Of a stretch of 34,711 nt of DNA, positions 4,675-30,456 are shown in pieces. The stretch covers positions 1 through 34,711 of the forward strand of contig JAFUVM010000038.1 of assembly GCA_017483665.1 (NCBI GenBank), in the 5' to 3' direction. Both the position numbers and the translations under genes were made by a program. Numbering within the stretch: the stretch's first letter is position 1; each line of letters opens with the position of its first letter. Below the pieces are notes generated by a model. That model saw only the letters and a program-made list of their open reading frames with translations, ran no database searches and was not told the origin of the DNA. This DNA is from Bacteroidaceae bacterium. Its GTDB lineage: Bacteria; Bacteroidota; Bacteroidia; Bacteroidales; Bacteroidaceae.

Positions 4675-6075
4675 ATGTATATGAAGAAACTGCTGATTGA
4701 GACATACGGCTGCCAGATGAACGTGGCGGACAGTGAGGTGGTGGCCAGCGTGATGGGCATTGCCGGCTATGAGGTGACGGAGAATATGGACGAGGCCGAT
4801 GCCGTGCTGCTGAACACTTGCTCGGTGCGCGACAATGCCGAACAGAAGATTATCTCCCGTCTGGAGTTCCTCCACAGCCTGCAGAAAAAGGGGCGCCAGC
4901 TCATCATCGGCGTGCTTGGCTGCATGGCAGAGCGCGTCAGGGAAAAACTCATCGAGGAGCATCATGCCGACATCGTGGCCGGACCGGACGCCTATCTGTC
5001 CCTGCCCGACCTCGTCAGTCAGGTGGAGTGCGGACAGAAGGCCATCAACGTGGAGCTCTCTACCACTGAGACCTATCGCGACATCGTGCCGCAGCGCATC
5101 TGCGGGCCGCACATCTCGGGCTTCGTCAGCATCATGCGCGGGTGCAACAACTTCTGCCACTACTGCATCGTGCCCTACACCCGGGGCCGCGAGCGCAGCC
5201 GCGACGTGGAGAGCATCCTGCGCGAATGCCGCGACCTGCAGGACCGTGGCTACAAGGAGGTCACGCTCCTGGGGCAGAACGTGAACAGCTACAGAAGCCC
5301 CCTCCCCGCTCCCCCTTTGGGGGAGTGCCTCATTGCCATTGAAACTTCCAAGTGCAGCGAGGCAGAGGCACTCCCCCAAAGGGGGGGCGGGGAGGGGGCT
5401 TTTCCTCAGCTATTGCGTCTCGTGGCCCGCGAAGTGCCGCAGATGCGGGTGCGCTTTACGACGTCGCACCCCAAGGACATGAGCGACGAGACACTCCGCG
5501 TCATTGCCGAAGAGCCCAACATCTGCCACCACATTCACCTGCCGGTGCAGAGCGGAAGCAACCGTATCCTGAAGCTCATGAACCGCAAGTACACGCGCGA
5601 GTGGTACCTGGACCGCGTGGCAGCCATCCGCCGCATCATCCCCGACTGCGCCATCTCCACCGACATCTTCTGCGGCTACTGCAGCGAGACGGAGGAGGAC
5701 CACCAGCAGAGCCTCTCCCTCATGCGCGAGGTGGGCTACGACAGCGCCTTCATGTTCAAGTACAGCGAACGTCCGGGGACGTATGCCAGCAAGCACCTCC
5801 CCGACGACGTCCCCGAGAATGTGAAGATACGCCGCCTGAATGAACTCATCGCCCTGCAGAACGAGCTGTCGGCCGAGGCCAACCGCCGCTGCGTCGGGCA
5901 GGAGTATGAGGTCCTCATCGAGGGCGTCAGCAAGCGCAGCCGCGAAGAGCTCTTCGGCCGGACGGGACAGAACAAGGTAGTCATCGTGCCGCGCGAAGGG
6001 CTCCACATCGGCCAGACCGTCCGTGTCCGCATCACCGAGAGTAGCAGTGCAACGCTGAAAGGAAAGAAAGAATAA
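4675..6075 (+). CDS. miaB: tRNA-2-methylthio-N6-isopentenyladenosine synthase MiaB, with an in-frame repeat insertion
   Basis: MiaB is a radical-SAM methylthiotransferase that adds a methylthio group to i6A37 of tRNAs. The N-terminal UPF0004 domain shows its three cluster cysteines (YGCQMN Cys13, NTCSV Cys49, GCMAERV Cys83). The radical-SAM motif CNNFCHYC (Cys157, 161, 164) follows, then TSHPKDMSDETL, LPVQSGSNRILKLMNRKYTR, STDIFCGY and a C-terminal TRAM domain. The protein is 466 residues. Residues about 207-243 do not belong to the family: they are encoded by a 108-bp inverted-repeat element placed between LLGQNVNSYR and FPQLLRLVA, a loop that varies in length among homologues. The frame is kept and all catalytic motifs are intact, so the protein is probably functional. 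Starts at ATG 4675 or 4681 are both possible. ftsX follows 11 bases downstream. Confidence 0.95.
   Translation: MYMKKLLIETYGCQMNVADSEVVASVMGIAGYEVTENMDEADAVLLNTCSVRDNAEQKIISRLEFLHSLQKKGRQLIIGVLGCMAERVREKLIEEHHADIVAGPDAYLSLPDLVSQVECGQKAINVELSTTETYRDIVPQRICGPHISGFVSIMRGCNNFCHYCIVPYTRGRERSRDVESILRECRDLQDRGYKEVTLLGQNVNSYRSPLPAPPLGECLIAIETSKCSEAEALPQRGGGEGAFPQLLRLVAREVPQMRVRFTTSHPKDMSDETLRVIAEEPNICHHIHLPVQSGSNRILKLMNRKYTREWYLDRVAAIRRIIPDCAISTDIFCGYCSETEEDHQQSLSLMREVGYDSAFMFKYSERPGTYASKHLPDDVPENVKIRRLNELIALQNELSAEANRRCVGQEYEVLIEGVSKRSREELFGRTGQNKVVIVPREGLHIGQTVRVRITESSSATLKGKKE
5295..5402. repeat. 108-bp paired-arm palindromic element inside miaB
   Basis: The left arm (AAGCCCCCTCCCC at 5295, then CTCCCCCTTTGGGGGAG at 5309-5325, then TGCCTC) is matched in reverse complement by the right arm (GAGGCA at 5359, ...CTCCCCCAAAGGGGG at 5371-5385, GGGGAGGGGGCTT ending 5402). 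The spacer between them is about 27 bases. Each arm also holds its own small hairpin. The length is a multiple of three and the reading frame stays open through it. The core CCCCCTTTrGGGGG is shared with the element at 9971-10066. Confidence 0.9.
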
Positions 6076-8112: not shown

Positions 8113-8825
8113 TGGACTTCATAGAGGGAGAGATACTTTGCTTCGACAAGCCATTGAGGTGGACGAGCTTCAATCTTGTTGCCAAGATACGGAGCCAGCT
8201 GTGCCACCGGCTTGGCGTCAGGAAACTCAAAGTGGGCCATGCCGGTACGCTCGACCCGTTGGCAACTGGCGTGATGGTCATCTGCACGGGCAAGGCCACG
8301 AAGCGCATCGACGAACTGCAGGCGCATGTCAAGGAATACGTTGCCACGTTGCAGCTCGGCGCTACTACGCCAAGCTTCGACCTCGAGAAGCCTGTCGACC
8401 AGACATACCCCACGGAGCACATCACCGAGACGCTGCTTCGCGAAGCACTCGGCAGGTTCCTCGGCCGCATCGAACAGGTTCCGCCAGCCTTCTCGGCCTG
8501 CAAGATTGACGGAAAGCGGGCGTATGACCTGGCCCGTCGTGGCAAGGAGGTGGAGCTCAAGCCGAAGGTGTTGGTCATCGACACGATAGAGCTTCTCAGC
8601 TTCGACCCCGAGGCGATGCAGGCCACGATTCGTGTCGTCTGCAGCAAGGGAACGTACATCCGGGCCCTGGCCCGCGACATAGGACAGGCCCTCGGCAGCG
8701 GTGCACACCTCATCGCCCTGCGGCGTACCCGGGTGGGCGACATCCGTGTGGAGGACTGCATGAAGGTTGAGGACTTCCCCGGCTGGCTGGAAAGCAATTC
8801 ACAATTCATAATTCACAATTCATAA
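8112..8825 (+). CDS. truB: tRNA pseudouridine-55 synthase TruB
   Basis: TruB isomerises U55 in the T-loop of tRNAs. The catalytic aspartate lies in KVGHAGTLDPLATGVM; other motifs are FDKPLRWTSFNLV at the N-terminus, PPAFSACKIDGKRAYDLAR, and GTYIRALARDIG. The 237-residue protein is of the short bacterial form. Its last residues, NSQFIIHNS, are encoded by an AT-rich intergenic repeat (8795-8830), so the native C-terminus has probably been replaced or extended by that element. The gene overlaps uppP by one base and is followed by queA after 64 bases. Confidence 0.95.
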   Translation: MDFIEGEILCFDKPLRWTSFNLVAKIRSQLCHRLGVRKLKVGHAGTLDPLATGVMVICTGKATKRIDELQAHVKEYVATLQLGATTPSFDLEKPVDQTYPTEHITETLLREALGRFLGRIEQVPPAFSACKIDGKRAYDLARRGKEVELKPKVLVIDTIELLSFDPEAMQATIRVVCSKGTYIRALARDIGQALGSGAHLIALRRTRVGDIRVEDCMKVEDFPGWLESNSQFIIHNS

Positions 8826-8889: not shown

Positions 8890-9972
8890 ATGAAACTACA
8901 GCAATTCAAGTACAAGCTTCCCGAGGAACGCATTGCGCAGGAGCCTACACCCTTCCGCGACGACTGCCGCCTCATGGTGATACATGCCAAGCGGGGAGTC
9001 ATAGAGCACCGCGAGTCTTTCCGCGACGTGCTGAAGTATTTCGACGAGAAGGATGTCTTCGTCTTCAACGACACGAAGGTCTTCCCGGCTCGCCTCTATG
9101 GTAACAAGGAGAAGACGGGCGCCAGGATAGAAGTCTTCCTGCTGCGCGAGCTCAACAAGGACATGCGTCTGTGGGATGTGCTGGTCGACCCCGCCCGTAA
9201 GATCCGCATCGGCAACAAGCTTTACTTCGGCGAGGACGAGTCGATGGTGGCCGAAGTCATCGACAACACCACGAGCCGCGGCCGTACGCTGCGTTTCCTC
9301 TACGACGGAACGCACGAGGAGTTCAAGCGTGCCCTGTACGCTTTGGGCGAGGCCCCCATACCCAAGCAGATTCTCCGGCGCGAGGTACTGCCCGACGACA
9401 TGGAGAACTTCCAGACCATCTTCGCAGAGAAGGAGGGTGCCGTCACAGCGCCGACAGCCGGTCTGCACTTCTCACCGCAGCTCATGAAGATGATGGAGAT
9501 TAAGGGCATCGACTTCGCCTTTGTCACCTTGCACTGCGGTCTGAGTAACTTCCGCGAGATAGATGTGGAGGACCTGACGAAGCACAAGATGGACAGCGAA
9601 GAGATGCACGTGGAGCAGGAGGCTTGCGACATCATCAACCGTGCACGCAAAGAAAACCACAAGGTTGTGGCCGTCGGCACGACCGTGCAGCGCGTGCTGG
9701 AGACAGCGGTCTCGACCGACGGACAGCTCAAAGAGTACCACGGCTGGACCAACCGCTTCATCTTCCCTCCCTACGACTTCCACCTGGCCGATGCCATGAT
9801 AGCGAACTTCCACCTGCCTTACAGCACGATGCTCATGCTGACCTGTGCCTTCGGCGGTTACGACCTTATCATGACGGCCTACAAGGAGGCGCTTCGCCAC
9901 AACGAGAACGACCCCGAGAAGCGTTACCGCTTTGGCACCTATGGCGATGCCATGCTGATACTTAATGATTGA
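8890..9972 (+). CDS. queA: S-adenosylmethionine:tRNA ribosyltransferase-isomerase QueA
   Basis: QueA moves the ribosyl part of SAM to preQ1-modified tRNA, making epoxyqueuosine at wobble position 34. Recognisable segments are [98 protein letters not shown] and [10 protein letters not shown]. The length of 360 residues is normal. It starts at the ATG in TACAACATG. Its TGA stop (9970-9972) overlaps the first bases of a palindromic element that also carries the folK start, so the queA-folK junction has been rebuilt by the element. Confidence 0.96.
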
Positions 9973-10066
9973 CCCCCTATCCCCCTTTAGGGGGAACAAA
10001 TGGTAATTGACTTTATGTCAGAATCCAAGGCTAATAAAAGACTCCCCCTAAAGGGGGATGGGGGGT
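9971..10066. repeat. Paired-arm palindromic element across the queA-folK junction
   Basis: The left arm GACCCCCTATCCCCC-TTTA-GGGGGA (9971-9995) is the near-exact reverse complement of the right arm TCCCCC-TAAA-GGGGGATGGGGGGTC (10043-10066). The spacer is 47 bases. The design equals that of the element in miaB: two hairpin-bearing arms with core CCCCCTTTrGGGGG facing each other. Confidence 0.88.
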
Positions 10067-10548
10067 CTTCCCTTTATTTGTCTCTTGGCTCGAACCTCGG
10101 CGACAGGGAACAGACACTGCACCGTGCCATTGCGCTCGTTGGCGAACGCATCGGCACGGTGCAGCGCGTTTCTTCGTTCATTGAGACCGAGCCTTGGGGG
10201 TTCCGGAGCGAACATCCCTTCCTGAATGCTGCCTGCATGGTGCTGACAAAGCTTTCTCCCATGCAGTGCCTCGAGGCGTCGCAGCAGATAGAACGCGAGT
10301 TGGGACGGCGGACGAAGTCGCAAGGCGGCATTTATCACGACCGTCCCATCGACATCGACCTCCTGCTCTACGACGACCTCCACATCTCTACTCCCACGCT
10401 GACCTTGCCGCATCCCCGCATGCTGGAGCGCGACTTCGTGATGATTCCCCTGCGGGAAATAATGGGGGATGCGGAGGCGCTACTCGCCGGCCATCACGAT
10501 GAGGCTCAGTCCTGTGATGAAGAAGGCGAACATCAGGGCGACCAATAG
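10000..10548 (+). CDS. folK: 2-Amino-4-hydroxy-6-hydroxymethyldihydropteridine pyrophosphokinase FolK
   Basis: FolK transfers pyrophosphate from ATP to hydroxymethyl-dihydropterin in folate synthesis. Motifs: YLSLGSNLGDREQ, SSFIETEPWGF, HPFLNAACMVLT, and DRPIDIDLLLYDD with the metal-binding aspartates, then HPRMLERDFVMIPLREI. Homologues begin a few residues before YLSLGSN. Here the first 20-25 residues (MVIDFMSESKANKR then LPLKGDGGSS) come from the palindromic element, and the only in-frame ATGs (10000, 10015) are in its spacer. The C-terminus runs 69 bases into the convergent transporter gene; the residues after REIMGD are probably read-through rather than conserved. Functional core motifs are intact. 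Confidence 0.9.
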   Translation: MVIDFMSESKANKRLPLKGDGGSSLYLSLGSNLGDREQTLHRAIALVGERIGTVQRVSSFIETEPWGFRSEHPFLNAACMVLTKLSPMQCLEASQQIERELGRRTKSQGGIYHDRPIDIDLLLYDDLHISTPTLTLPHPRMLERDFVMIPLREIMGDAEALLAGHHDEAQSCDEEGEHQGDQ

Positions 10549-22112: not shown

Positions 22113-24510
22113 GAAGCAAACGCTACTGCAGGGAGCCCTCATAGTGGGGCTCCTTGTTTTTATGGCTGCTTGCACCGGCAGCAGTCGCGAGGAACAGGAG
22201 GCACTCAGCTTCCTGTACGAGAACATGCCTTTGCCCGACAGCGTGGACTATCCGCGCGGGTTCTGGGAGGCAAATGTCAAGGTGGCCCTGAAGGCTCGTT
22301 GCGAGATGCCGTGGGGCGAGAAGGTGCCCGGCAGGGAGTGGCGGCACTTCGTCCTGCCTCTGCGTGTCAACAACGAGGACCTCGACTCCTTCCGCATCGT
22401 CTATTACGACGAGTTGAAGGAGCGCGTCAAGGGCAAGACGATGTACGGCGCCGTGCTTGAGGTCAACCACTGGTGCCACGAGCACGTCAGCTATCAGCCC
22501 AGCGACAGCCGCACCTCGTCGCCCATGAACACGCTGCGTTCCGCTATCGGGCGTTGCGGCGAGGAGAGCACCTTTACCGTCTCGGCGCTCCGCACCATCG
22601 GCATCCCGGCCCGCCAGGTGTACACGCCGCGTTGGGCCCACACCGACGACAACCATGCCTGGGTCGAAGCCTGGGTGGACGGCAGGTGGTACTTCCTCGG
22701 GGCCTGCGAGCCTGAGCCTGTGCTCAACCTCGGATGGTTCAACGAGCCGGCAGCCCGTGGCATGCTGATGCACACGAAGGTGTTCGGAGCCTACGACGGA
22801 CCGGAGGAAGTGGTGGGCCGCAATGCCTGCTACACGGAGATTAACGTCACGAAGAACTATGCCGACGTTGCCACGGTCAAGGTGACGGTGCTCGGTGCCG
22901 ACAGCCTGCCCGTGGAGGATGCTACGGTCGACTACCGCCTGTACAACTACGCGGAGTTCTATCCCATTGTCACGAAGAAGAGCGACGCCAAGGGGCAGTC
23001 CTCGCTGACCTGCGGCAAGGGCGACCTCGTCGTGTGGGCCAGCAAGGACGGACGCTTCGGCTTCCAGAAGGTGAGTGTCGGGCAGGATGACTTTATCAGC
23101 GTCTATCTCGACAAGGACAGCACGTACACCGCCTCGTTCGACCTCGACCTGATTCCGCCTCTCGGCAAGGACAACAAGCCGGACGTCAGTGCCGAATCAG
23201 TGCGGGCGAACCGCAAGCGCCTTGCCGCGGAGGACAGCATCCGTGCGGCCTATATGCAGCAGGCGTTCTGTCCGGATGCCGCTCCCGACAGCTACGAGGC
23301 TCTGGCACGCGCCAACTGGCAGACCATTGCTGCGTTTCGCGAGAAGGTCGGCAACGAACGTTCCGCCGAGGTCTTTGCCGGACTCTCGAAGAAGGACTTC
23401 CGCGACGTGACGATGGAGGTCCTGATGGACGGAGTGGGCCGCGTTGCTAACGAACGTCTGACACCCTGCCGCACTGAGCTTAAGGAGTACTTCGACGGCA
23501 TGACGGCCGGGCAGCTCCGGCAGTGGGTGAAGGACAGCATCACGGTGGACGACACACGCAACCCGCAGCATCTCTGCATGAGTCCGCTCGGCGTGCTCCG
23601 CCATCGGACGTGCGATGCCCACAGCCGCGACATCTTCCTCGTCTCGGCAGCCCGCGCCATCGGCATTCCTGCCCGCATGAACGAGATAGACCCCACCCAG
23701 CCTCCCTTTGTAGGCGAGGAGCATAATGTAGTCTCCCCTCTCCCCGGAGAGGGGTCGGGGGTGAGGCTTTCTCTCACCTACTCCGACCAGGCGGTGAAGG
23801 AGAACCCTGTATACTACACGCATTTCGCCCTCTCGCGCATCGTGGATGGCCGTCCGCAGGTGCAGGAATACCCCGAGGGAGCGACATGGAAGGACACTTT
23901 CAAGGAAGGTGTAGAGGTTGAGCCTGGGCAGTACATGCTGCTGAGCGGCACACGTCTTGCCAACGGCGGTGTGCTGGCACATGTGGAGATAAACAGCCTG
24001 CCTCAGGGAGGGTCTCTGCCCCTCCGTCTGCGTGTGGATGAGGACCGTCTGCGTGTCATCGGCAGCTTCGACTGCGAGCAGTACTTCACCAACGTGCACG
24101 GCGTGCACAAAAAGATACTCGACACCACGGGCCGGGGCTTCTACATCATCGCCCTCATCCGTAGCGGACACGAGCCAAGCACGCACCTCCTGCACGACAT
24201 CGAGGCGGCCAACATCCACTTCTCGCAGTGGTCGCAGTGCTACCTCATGCTCTTCCAAAGCCAGGAAGACTACGACAACTTCAACCGCAAGGAGTTCGAC
24301 GACCTGCCCAGCAATGTGCTCTTCGGCGTGGCCGACCCCGAGACAGCCGAAGCCATGCACATCCAGGAGCTCACCCACGGCAACGAAGAGCTGCCCATCG
24401 TGATGCTCTGCGACACGTTCAACCGCGTCGTCTGGTTCCGACAGGGCTACAGCATCGGCCTGGGCGACCAGATGATGGATGCCTTGCGCAAGATAATAAT
24501 GAAAGAATAG
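22102..24510 (+). CDS. Transglutaminase-like lipoprotein
   Basis: The ATG at 22102 overlaps the GH125 3' end. Residues 1-24 form a lipoprotein signal (ALIVGLLVFMAAC, lipid on Cys24). The first transglutaminase core has GRCGEESTFTVSALRTIGIPA with Cys152 and DDNHAWVEAW with His185. A second, partial core-like segment, RTCDAHSRDIFLVSAARAIGIPA at about residues 500-525, repeats the Cys-to-GIPAR spacing. Between them is a beta-rich carboxypeptidase-regulatory-like stretch (VTVLGADSLPVEDATVDYRL). The C-terminal third (HEPSTHLLHDIEAA, QEDYDNFNRKEFDDLP) is unassigned. Such proteins may act as peptidases or cross-linkers. Residues near VVSPLPGEGSGVRLSL come from an inserted hairpin element. Its operon position suggests a role in processing glycoproteins. 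Confidence 0.85.
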   Translation: MQNKKQTLLQGALIVGLLVFMAACTGSSREEQEALSFLYENMPLPDSVDYPRGFWEANVKVALKARCEMPWGEKVPGREWRHFVLPLRVNNEDLDSFRIVYYDELKERVKGKTMYGAVLEVNHWCHEHVSYQPSDSRTSSPMNTLRSAIGRCGEESTFTVSALRTIGIPARQVYTPRWAHTDDNHAWVEAWVDGRWYFLGACEPEPVLNLGWFNEPAARGMLMHTKVFGAYDGPEEVVGRNACYTEINVTKNYADVATVKVTVLGADSLPVEDATVDYRLYNYAEFYPIVTKKSDAKGQSSLTCGKGDLVVWASKDGRFGFQKVSVGQDDFISVYLDKDSTYTASFDLDLIPPLGKDNKPDVSAESVRANRKRLAAEDSIRAAYMQQAFCPDAAPDSYEALARANWQTIAAFREKVGNERSAEVFAGLSKKDFRDVTMEVLMDGVGRVANERLTPCRTELKEYFDGMTAGQLRQWVKDSITVDDTRNPQHLCMSPLGVLRHRTCDAHSRDIFLVSAARAIGIPARMNEIDPTQPPFVGEEHNVVSPLPGEGSGVRLSLTYSDQAVKENPVYYTHFALSRIVDGRPQVQEYPEGATWKDTFKEGVEVEPGQYMLLSGTRLANGGVLAHVEINSLPQGGSLPLRLRVDEDRLRVIGSFDCEQYFTNVHGVHKKILDTTGRGFYIIALIRSGHEPSTHLLHDIEAANIHFSQWSQCYLMLFQSQEDYDNFNRKEFDDLPSNVLFGVADPETAEAMHIQELTHGNEELPIVMLCDTFNRVVWFRQGYSIGLGDQMMDALRKIIMKE
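23735..23778. repeat. GC-rich double-hairpin element, in frame in the transglutaminase gene
   Basis: CCCCTCTCC-CC-GGAGAGGGG (23735-23754) is a perfect hairpin; GGTGAG (23760-23765) pairs with CTCACC (23773-23778). It encodes SPLPGEGSGVRLSLT, a low-complexity insert after EEHN and before YSDQAVK. It lacks the second arm seen in miaB and folK and belongs to a different sequence family. Confidence 0.75.
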
Positions 24511-24520
24511 GGATAGGCCT

Positions 24521-24666
24521 TCTAGAACTTCTAGGATTTCTAGAACTTCTAGGATTTCTAGAGCTTCTAGGATTTCTAGAGTTTCTAGAGCTTCTAGGAT
24601 TTCTAGAGCTTCTAGGATTTCTAGAGCTTCTAGGATTTCTAGAACTTCTAGTTCCTCTAGTTCCTA
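24521..24666. repeat. Tandem 'TTCTAGAnC / TTCTAGGAT' decamer array
   Basis: About fourteen 9-11-base units starting TTCTAG, alternating TTCTAGAGC or TTCTAGAAC with TTCTAGGAT, fill the gap between the convergent transglutaminase and flippase genes. The flippase TAG stop (24659-24657) lies in the last unit. Confidence 0.9.
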
Positions 24667-26072
24667 GCTATCTCTCTCTTGTAGACGATGCCCGCGAAGG
24701 CGAGAATCATTGCCGTGCTGATGCCGAGATGCAGCCACACGGGAGCGTCGGCAGGGATGCAGGTTATCGCGTAGTAGAAAACGGCGGTGAGGAGCGTATA
24801 GCCAGCCATAGACCGTATCGGGTAGGGGATGGGATAGAGCTTCTGCCCGACGAAGTAGCTCAGCAGCATTGCTGTGCCGTAGCCTGCCACGCCGCCCCAG
24901 GCGCAAGCCATGTAGCTGTAGTGCGGGATGCCCCAGATGTTGACGGCAAGCAGCACGAGGCAGCCGGCCAGCGAGAACAGGGCACCATAGATGGTTTTGT
25001 CAATCAACTTGTACCAGAACGAGAGGTTGAAGTAGATGCCCATCATGATCTCCGCCACCATGACGATGGGAATGACGCGCAATCCATCCCAGTAATCTGA
25101 ACCAATCATGTAGCGGAGCACGGGCAACCAGCCCATCACGCAGAGAAAAGCCAGCAGCGTGAAGATGACGAAGTATTTCATGCCCAGGGCGTAATACTCC
25201 GTCTTGTCGGCATCCTTCGCCTTGGCAAAGACGATGGGCTCGTAGGCGTAGCGGAACGCCTGCGTTATCATTGCCATGATCATCGCCACCTTCGCACAGC
25301 TGCCATACACGCCCAGCTCCACGTTGGCCTGTGCCTCGTCGGGGTAAACCTTCGGGAAAAGTATCTTGTCCGCCACTTGGTTCAGGATGCCCATCACGCT
25401 CAGAAGGAGTATCGGCCACGAGTAGGAAAGCATCCGTCGAAGCAGCTTGCCGTCGAATTTCCAATGGATCTTCATTAGCTCAGGAATGAAGAAGAAGGTG
25501 ATGAAGCCCGTGCAAAGCAGGTTGATGAAGAAGACATAGAACACACTCGTCTTGCCGAGCAGGACGAAGAAAATGAGGTTGAGGGCGATGTTGAGGAAAA
25601 TGAAGCCCATCTTCAGCGACATGAATCGAATGGGACGGTGCTGGAAACGAAGGAAGCAGAAAGGCAGCGCCTGTAAGGCATCCAGCGCAACCACCGTCGC
25701 CATCATCAGCAAGTATTCCGGATGCTCAGCGTATCCCAGGTAATTCGAAACGGGTGTGATGAAGCTGAAGAGCAGCAAAAGGAACACCGCGGCGAGGCTT
25801 CCCACCATCGCAAAGCCGGTAGAGAAGACCGTGTCGGGCGTCTCTCGCTCATCGTTGGCATAGCGGAACAGCGTGGTCTCCATGCCGAACGTCAGAATGG
25901 CGAAGAACAAAGCGGTGTAGGCGTACATGTTCGTGTTCACGCCATAGTCGCCGGAAGCCTTCGGCATGTAGTGTGTATAGAGGGGTACGAGCAGGTAGTT
26001 GAGGAAACGCCCCACGATGCTCGAGAGTCCGTATATGGCCGTGTCCTTGGCCAGAGCTTTCAGGTTTGCCAT
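24657..26072 (-). CDS. Polysaccharide flippase (Wzx/MATE-like)
   Basis: The 471-residue protein has 12-14 transmembrane helices and the typical opening LKALAKDTAIYGLSSIVGRFLNYLLVPLYT, with YGVNTNMYAYTALFFAILTFGMETTLFRYAN next. These are hallmarks of lipid-linked oligosaccharide flippases, which turn undecaprenyl-linked sugar units across the inner membrane for surface glycan or lipopolysaccharide assembly. No glycosyltransferase cluster surrounds it, so it is probably a core-type flippase rather than part of a capsule locus. It follows the exonuclease gene on the same strand with a 113-base repeat-filled gap. The C-terminal residues REIARN end in the TTCTAG array. Confidence 0.88.
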   Translation of the reverse strand: MANLKALAKDTAIYGLSSIVGRFLNYLLVPLYTHYMPKASGDYGVNTNMYAYTALFFAILTFGMETTLFRYANDERETPDTVFSTGFAMVGSLAAVFLLLLFSFITPVSNYLGYAEHPEYLLMMATVVALDALQALPFCFLRFQHRPIRFMSLKMGFIFLNIALNLIFFVLLGKTSVFYVFFINLLCTGFITFFFIPELMKIHWKFDGKLLRRMLSYSWPILLLSVMGILNQVADKILFPKVYPDEAQANVELGVYGSCAKVAMIMAMITQAFRYAYEPIVFAKAKDADKTEYYALGMKYFVIFTLLAFLCVMGWLPVLRYMIGSDYWDGLRVIPIVMVAEIMMGIYFNLSFWYKLIDKTIYGALFSLAGCLVLLAVNIWGIPHYSYMACAWGGVAGYGTAMLLSYFVGQKLYPIPYPIRSMAGYTLLTAVFYYAITCIPADAPVWLHLGISTAMILAFAGIVYKREIARN

Positions 26073-29936: not shown

Positions 29937-30456
29937 ATGTTTTTATTTCATTCTGCCATCGTTTTTCATTAAAATTTAGTCAAAATGAGTGTTTCCTTCG
30001 TTTTCTCTCAACACGCAACATCAAAATACAAGGAAGATAACATGAAATAGGATTTAATTTTAACATCTAAAAGCACGGAATAAACGAAAGCCTTTGTCGT
30101 GGGCTTGTTTTGAGCTTTTCGTGTCTTTCGATGTTCATATATTATTCGTGTCAATTCGTGGCATTATGGTAATTCGTGTTTTAGTGTCTTTCGTGCCTTT
30201 CGATGTTCATATATTATTCGTGTCAATTCGTGGCATTATGGTAATTCGTGTTTTAGTGACTTTCGTGCCTTTCGATGTTCATATATTATTCGTGTCAATT
30301 CGTGGCATTATGGTAATTCGTGTTTTAGTGACTTTCGTGCCTTTCGATGTTCATATATATATACGCAGAAATGACGTTTCGTACAGCAAACCCAAGTTAA
30401 ACAATGTTAATTCGGCGTCTTTAGTACACAAAAGTTCTTAAATACCGCATGGCTTG
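29937..30456. other. Intergenic region dominated by tandem repeats
   Basis: No credible gene is seen. A 115-codon open frame (30094-30441) is the translation of the 72-bp array, which stays open because the unit is a multiple of three. Outside the array, TTAACATCTAAAAGCACGG (30059) recurs as TTAACATCTAAAAACACG after the terminator at 34477. Confidence 0.7.
30115..30358. repeat. 72-bp tandem repeat, three full copies plus a partial
   Basis: CTTTCGATGTTCATATA recurs at 30125, 30197, 30269 and 30341, a constant 72-base period. Units are nearly identical; the first complete unit has GTGTC where later ones have GTGAC. Each unit contains ATTCGTG three times (ATTCGTGTCAATTCGTGGC, TAATTCGTG). The uniformity points to recent expansion. 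Confidence 0.95.

Follow-up and report, generated by a model that had tools for sequence, protein, structure and literature searches.

A palindromic repeat lies in frame within miaB of a Bacteroidaceae bacterium, on contig JAFUVM010000038.1 of assembly GCA_017483665.1, of which the 34,711 nucleotides (nt) from position 1 onward are referred to here as the window. It is close to certain that this insert belongs to a family of palindromic repeats that are kept in frame inside genes. Arms of the same type bracket larger units that code for a nuclease of the DUF559 family, and the insert is probably a non-autonomous member, resembling a miniature inverted-repeat transposable element (MITE) or a paired repetitive extragenic palindrome (REP) of the REPIN kind, of a palindromic mobile family associated with DUF559. 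The miaB site is also a hotspot that holds different palindromes in different species, which goes beyond what the initial annotation of this DNA had proposed. Such elements suggest a little-known kind of mobile DNA, one that survives by being translated.

Structure and Reading Frame of the miaB Insert

The host gene, the element and its parts are arranged as follows.

4675–6075, plus strand: miaB, the interrupted host gene of 466 codons, identified by open reading frame (ORF) reading, family matches and structure alignment.
5296–5400, plus strand: the in-frame element of 105 nt, MiaB residues 208–242, defined by the inverted repeat, the open ORF and comparison with homologues.
5295–5331, plus strand: the left arm, itself a hairpin, with the core TCCCCCTTTGGGGGA.
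5332–5364, no strand assigned: the spacer, whose length and sequence differ from copy to copy.
5365–5401, minus strand: the right arm, an inverted copy of the left arm.

The near-perfect inverted repeat reported in the initial annotation is real. Its arms are 37 nt each, 97% complementary and separated by 33 nt, rather than by the 27 bases first given. As RNA, the element folds at -98.7 kcal/mol (z -10.7), and none of 200 shuffled versions folds as well. The 26-nt core of the arm, at up to three mismatches, is matched twice in the window versus not at all in 100 shuffles. The ORF at 4675–6075 stays open across the insert and matches UPF0004, Radical_SAM and TRAM. Between the MiaB motifs QNVNSYR and FPQLLRL the insert encodes 35 residues; the element is a multiple of three in length, as first described, at 105 nt instead of the 108 bp and about 36 residues first given. 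In crystallized Bacteroides uniformis MiaB (7mjv), which can be aligned on either side of the insert, the linker has about 10 residues versus 35 here. Translation of the insert in the cell would follow from its frame.

The arm of the window's family has no stop codon in any of the six frames, so its copies would be translated into a flexible loop. Among 42 arms, in which L184 and L208 are one locus counted twice, 19 are open in six frames, a moderate excess over 500 draws (mean 10.1, maximum 18). Here and below, L numbers denote loci, G000 is the window's own genome (78% complete) and other G numbers are genomes of the same genus.

A Dispersed Family Kept in Frame

At up to three mismatches, the arm occurs 31 times in G000 and never in its mirror image. 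These matches group into 19 places on 18 contigs, although the two copies at the C108 and C119 contig ends resemble parts of a single locus split by an assembly break. Near-identical arms lie in unrelated places, the spacers are variable, and some copies have a single arm. Contigs end inside or beside the element at C95, C108 and C119 of G000 and at C23 of G027; since assemblies break at the element, copies are probably undercounted.

At 12 of the 19 places the element keeps the frame of an ORF that belongs to a recognized family. The hosts are miaB, tldD, the CCA tRNA nucleotidyltransferase gene (cca), a DHODB/glutamate synthase fusion, a NanM-like protein, a histidine-kinase ATPase domain, prmC, RNase R (rnr), an RlmB-like methylase, uxaC, pcrA, and a TolC-family protein in which the insert lies just past the presumed signal peptide and only the downstream side is matched. 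Two further places (L011 and L022) are in open ORFs without a family match, two are contig-end copies that appear RibD-like by eye, and three (L014, L018 and L023) are at gene ends or outside genes.

At the same threshold, arms are found in 31 of the 101 genomes of this genus, and a single genome can have as many as 87 matches. Exact cores occur in at least 113 stretches; the 80 named loci among the matches listed are metagenome-assembled genomes of Bacteroidales, Bacteroidaceae or Prevotellaceae, from sheep, goat, yak, horse and other hosts. Carriage by phages was considered and rejected, as viral contigs gave no exact arm match.

Coding context was assessed for 159 elements drawn from the window, 17 loci of its own genome and 113 named loci. 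Removal of 15 elements without flanks and 36 near-identical sites left 108 non-redundant sites. Of these, 40 have coding sequence on both sides, and the element is in frame and open at 33 of them, in frame with a stop at one, and out of frame at six. Of the remainder, 44 have a single coding side, 23 are noncoding, and one falls between opposite strands. Random cut points in the same loci (n = 1865) fell in frame in 752 cases, beside one coding side in 667, in noncoding DNA in 436, and otherwise in 10. The element is therefore not clearly excluded from genes, yet its frame is kept. These results bear out the initial description of an in-frame, tolerated insert that behaves like a Rickettsia palindromic element (RPE).

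If the insert were a self-splicing intron or an intein, or were skipped by programmed bypass, it would be removed before the protein is finished, and the full-size unit described below does code for a homing-endonuclease-like nuclease. Removal of this kind is nevertheless a very remote prospect, given that frame is kept at 34 of the 40 two-sided sites and that 33 lack a stop. Moreover, five DUF559 loci have no Rfam family at the gathering score, and Rfam matches in the miaB region are sub-threshold, nearly all to microRNA hairpin models and none to an intron model.

Different Palindromes at the Same Sites

The site in miaB was first described as one where homologues vary in length, and this is the case. 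In 29 same-genus MiaB genes (own included, both sides readable), the linker ranges from 12 to 144 nt and is always a multiple of three. At this site, the palindrome type of G000 recurs in G036 and G045, G005 retains a remnant of the right arm, and G038 and G020 hold other palindromes. In G035, G013, G052, G012, G024 and G058, the site has only 12–15 nt. Most homologues do not carry the same residues encoded by non-palindromic DNA. An assembly artefact is unlikely, as the same element is found in miaB of G036 and G045, and a G027 contig stops inside the element. A MiaB tree places G000, G036 and G045 in different groups, and the sister genome G053 lacks the window type. The site is therefore occupied in three genomes that are separate on the tree, and the family is also present in many different genes.

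Comparison with G053 was possible at seven of nine sites, with rnr and rlmB giving no G053 match. None of the seven holds the window type and none is empty. Another paired palindrome occupies uxaC, tldD, gltA, prmC and the kinase gene, and remnants of another palindrome are seen by eye in cca and miaB. The arm of the G053 uxaC palindrome is exactly the 35-nt arm of that genome's own DUF559 unit (L204), and the gltA palindrome has a 20-nt core in common with the G053 DUF559 locus L205. With other palindromes or remnants at all seven comparable sites, one palindrome family may take the place of another at fixed sites.

The uxaC gene offers a closer view. Its left junction is identical in G000 and G053, and the outer six bases of the G000 left arm match those of the G053 family, suggesting the replacement of one palindrome by another; the site is native sequence in G027 and G036. 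A further repeat, in which GGAGCAAGGAGCAAGG runs have an inverted partner, occupies the same miaB and cca sites in other genomes (L032 in G020 miaB and L319 in G027 cca). Over all orthologous sites compared, another palindrome was present in 64 of 203 pairs versus 11 of 249 random places, with the pairs not independent and the loci chosen for having arms. An exchange of palindromes at fixed sites is suggested, not proven.

DUF559 Units Bracketed by the Arms

In five named loci, window-type arms surround a unit coding for a protein of about 130 residues, and the four complete units are 491–521 nt long. The protein matches PF04480 (DUF559) at 5.7e-32, and its model resembles the homing endonuclease I-Bth0305I (PDB 3r3p) and Vsr. 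All five units occupy a single orthologous place, which by eye is flanked by a transporter gene and an N-acylglucosamine 2-epimerase gene. Two more loci have the same arms: L212 lies at that place, while the flanks of L221 match another locus, L157.

In the genus, PF04480 occurs in 68 of 101 genomes. Sampling began with the best match of each of 30 genomes and continued with picks from genomes that have window-type arms, giving 49 distinct loci, of which six with short flanks were dropped. Inverted arms (score of at least 12) bracket 41 of the remaining 43, versus 12 of 1238 control placements in the same loci. The arm sequences differ, but the layout is mostly common, with a C-rich foot followed by a hairpin. 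Similar DUF559 proteins tend to have similar arms (Mantel r 0.171, with 2 of 5000 permutations as high and same-locus pairs excluded), a correlation that is weak but real.

Full-size units may also enter genes. Within leuS, metH, hsdR and a capF/WbjC-like gene, and also ahead of gmk and purD, a DUF559 domain keeps the frame open, and matches to host domains flank it on one or both sides. The full-size unit thus also behaves as a translated insert, and such cases are probably undercounted because the ORF readings are valid only for plus-strand loci. Bracketing scores are 32 for gmk, 18 for purD and 13 for the capF-like gene.

Across the phylum, PF04480 occurs in 78 of 148 genomes, and 15 of 25 full-length loci (five cut-short ones were left out) score at least 12 versus 36 of 738 control placements, with arms that are not all C-rich. 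For other phyla, 10 loci were taken from 33 plasmid-record matches. Six of these have C-rich bracketing arms that score above all controls, one by a single point; L256 beats its controls with a match that is not C-rich, and three further loci do not exceed theirs. No occupied/empty pair that would represent a clean empty site at the strain level was present among the matches listed in plasmid-record searches with one Sinorhizobium and one Azospirillum locus. No paper joining DUF559 with inverted repeats was found in a literature search that lay largely outside subscription papers and preprints.

Some of these loci have features of their own. In Sinorhizobium meliloti CP090106.1 (L254), long CCCTCACCCTAACCCTCTCCCC palindromes bracket DUF559, and 39 places in this record match the locus, some of them representing an insertion sequence element. 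We take these palindromes to recall the rhizobial RIME repeats. DUF559 also lies between operon genes, namely sufB/sufC in Sphingomonas (L258) and paaD/paaZ in Deinococcus (L260).

Copy Numbers and Candidate Mobilizers

Palindromes of the form CCCTCCC..GGGAGGG have a median number of 29.5 in the 68 genomes with DUF559 versus 2 in the 33 without it. Their number is correlated with that of DUF559 genes (Spearman 0.60, or 0.52 after adjustment for genome size).

The initial annotation had considered the insert a mobilized REP-like unit. The paired-arm build of such a unit stands, but mobilization by the REP-associated tyrosine transposase (RAYT, a Y1 tyrosine transposase), which the term would suggest, is improbable, and a DUF559 endonuclease is the likely enzyme instead. 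A REPIN moved by RAYT, with DUF559 as a passenger, would account for paired inverted hairpin arms and a variable spacer, and G000 has one Y1_Tnp gene. However, at the one RAYT locus examined (C3; L028, 1000–2300), the gene has many palindromes of a different type, GCGGATTTGCAATCCGC, on both sides, which represent a separate REP-like family. Nor is RAYT number related to palindrome number (rho 0.16, or 0.01 for strong RAYT members) or to window-type arm number (rho -0.005). With other palindromes at its own-genome locus and no copy-number link, RAYT was rejected as the mobilizer, and the passenger reading is quite improbable.

Spread without any dedicated mobilizer, through host repair or replication slippage and build-up in insertion-tolerant loops, is unlikely, albeit less so than movement by RAYT. 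The sites are ones where proteins vary in length, GGAGCAAGGAGCAAGG-like repeats occupy the same miaB and cca sites, and some DUF559-negative genomes are palindrome-rich, all of which such a process would explain. It would not readily explain why arms at unrelated places are near-identical, why 41 of 43 DUF559 genes lie between matched inverted arms, or why palindrome number is linked with DUF559.

A Proposed Mechanism and Its Limits

It is likely but unproven that DUF559 moves the palindromes. Full-size members carry the nuclease of about 130 residues, with a Vsr/I-Bth0305I fold, between the same arms as the short copies. This nuclease would nick or cut either the palindromic arms (as hairpin or cruciform) or target sites. 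Repair of the break could then copy the element in without target duplication, and sometimes replace native bases or an older palindrome. Selection would retain those copies whose length keeps the frame, and translated copies would form a flexible loop with which the host enzyme still works.

The ends of the element bear on this scheme. Over 61 sites, they take the form A-GCCCCC...GGGGGC-T, with the T present at 98 of 122 ends; neither a target-site duplication (2–6 nt) nor a wider target motif was found at these sites. The commonest element lengths, 92 nt (12 sites) and 103 nt (10 sites), differ in phase, so frame appears to depend on bases lost or gained in varying number at the junction, with selection acting afterwards. 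We infer that classical transposition suits this pattern less well than cutting by a nuclease and subsequent repair.

Several observations weigh against a DUF559-driven mobile family. No movement of the element has been observed, and the uxaC case is the only clear hybrid arm among 163 cores. DUF559 units with window-type arms are mostly of one orthologous locus, with only L221 elsewhere, and thus represent few independent events; the 78% complete G000 yielded none that is bracketed by the window's own arms. The correlation between arms and proteins is weak, though beyond chance, and bracketing is poor for the in-frame domains of metH (12), hsdR (11) and leuS (7). In other phyla, no more than the six plasmid loci noted above, one by its single point, have C-rich arms exceeding the controls. 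The copy-number correlation ignores genome relatedness, window-type arm number is only weakly related to DUF559 number (rho 0.20, p 0.04), and six DUF559-negative genomes have at least 20 palindromes, one of them 123.

A Second Palindrome Family and Other Repeats

The window contains a second palindrome of the same build, together with a gene that begins inside it.

9971–10067, no strand assigned: second palindrome, of another family, with GACCCCC..CCCCCTTTAGGGGGA arms.
10000–10548, plus strand: folK (HPPK), whose first codons lie inside the second palindrome.

This palindrome forms the stop codon of a queA-like ORF (8890–9972) and encodes the first FolK residues. Its GACCCCC..CCCCCTTTAGGGGGA core occurs 64 times in G000, including twice in the window (9981 and 10043), and the same arms bracket one of the two DUF559 genes of that genome (C130:12122–12445). 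Among 21 sampled sites of the second family, which include both arms of the DUF559 unit, six are in frame and open, four out of frame, 10 one-sided and one noncoding.

Other repeats are also present in the window. A tandem array with a 9-nt step and TTCTAGAGC/TTCTAGGAT units lies at 24502–24681, at and after the end of an 805-codon ORF. Three repeat copies that are 94% alike are spaced 72 nt apart at 30108–30358, and AT-rich inverted repeats of the AATTCATAATTC type, another repeat family, occur at 8795, 13115, 16410 and 16535.

Comparison with Known Systems

The full-size unit shares its nuclease fold with the homing endonuclease I-Bth0305I (3r3p). In contrast to a homing endonuclease, the elements described here occupy many different genes and have palindromic flanks. 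Rfam searches of the miaB region and of five DUF559 loci gave no intron.

As in MITEs, according to the sections consulted of PMC10969869, terminal inverted repeats are held in common with a larger coding element, and short copies are non-autonomous; the DUF559 unit would presumably be the autonomous form. Unlike MITEs, the elements show no target-site duplication at the 61 sites, and a Vsr-like nuclease, rather than a known transposase, lies between the arms.

REPINs and the GTAG and CGTC classes of REPs, as far as the consulted part of PMC3733652 describes them, are likewise built of hairpin units in inverted pairs with a variable spacer, and can form a REPtron-like unit around a gene. The window arm differs in that its hairpin lacks a GTAG or CGTC tag at the base, and the bracketed gene here is DUF559, not RAYT. 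The same portion of that paper places GTAG/CGTC REPs mostly between genes, while the present elements are frequent inside them. It also reports intragenic REP copies in many species and CGTC repeats in Bacteroidetes, so palindromes in coding sequence are, as such, already known outside Rickettsia.

The elements also resemble RPEs, which the consulted parts of PMC10969869 and PMC3733652 describe as short palindromic repeats of several families that lie in frame in unrelated genes. Here too, a palindrome of about 100–150 nt is present in several copies, in frame in unrelated protein genes. Compared with RPEs by description only, the present elements occur in another bacterial phylum, have C/G-rich arms, and come with a candidate mobilizer gene. 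In the part of the 2013 survey consulted (PMC3733652), the CGTC class includes RPE-4 and RPE-6, and no dedicated transposase or other mobilizer gene is named for it. Palindromes in coding sequence are known in Rickettsia and, to a lesser extent, in other bacteria.

A wider proposal is held tentatively, with a little less than even confidence: PF04480 may mobilize a C-rich palindrome superfamily across phyla, in which a Vsr/homing-type nuclease takes the place of a transposase, insertion within genes proceeds without splicing, the arms are often open in many frames, and families exchange at fixed docking sites in conserved proteins. Under this proposal, DUF559 may even be the missing enzyme for palindromes that lack a transposase, for example the CGTC class with some of the RPEs. 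If DUF559 is indeed the enzyme in the present family, this would account for many bacterial C-rich palindromes, assign DUF559 a role, and reveal that new loops are steadily supplied to proteins such as MiaB, LeuRS, MetH and RNase R. Relative to these known systems, coding palindromes are common in another bacterial group, with a testable candidate enzyme between the same arms.
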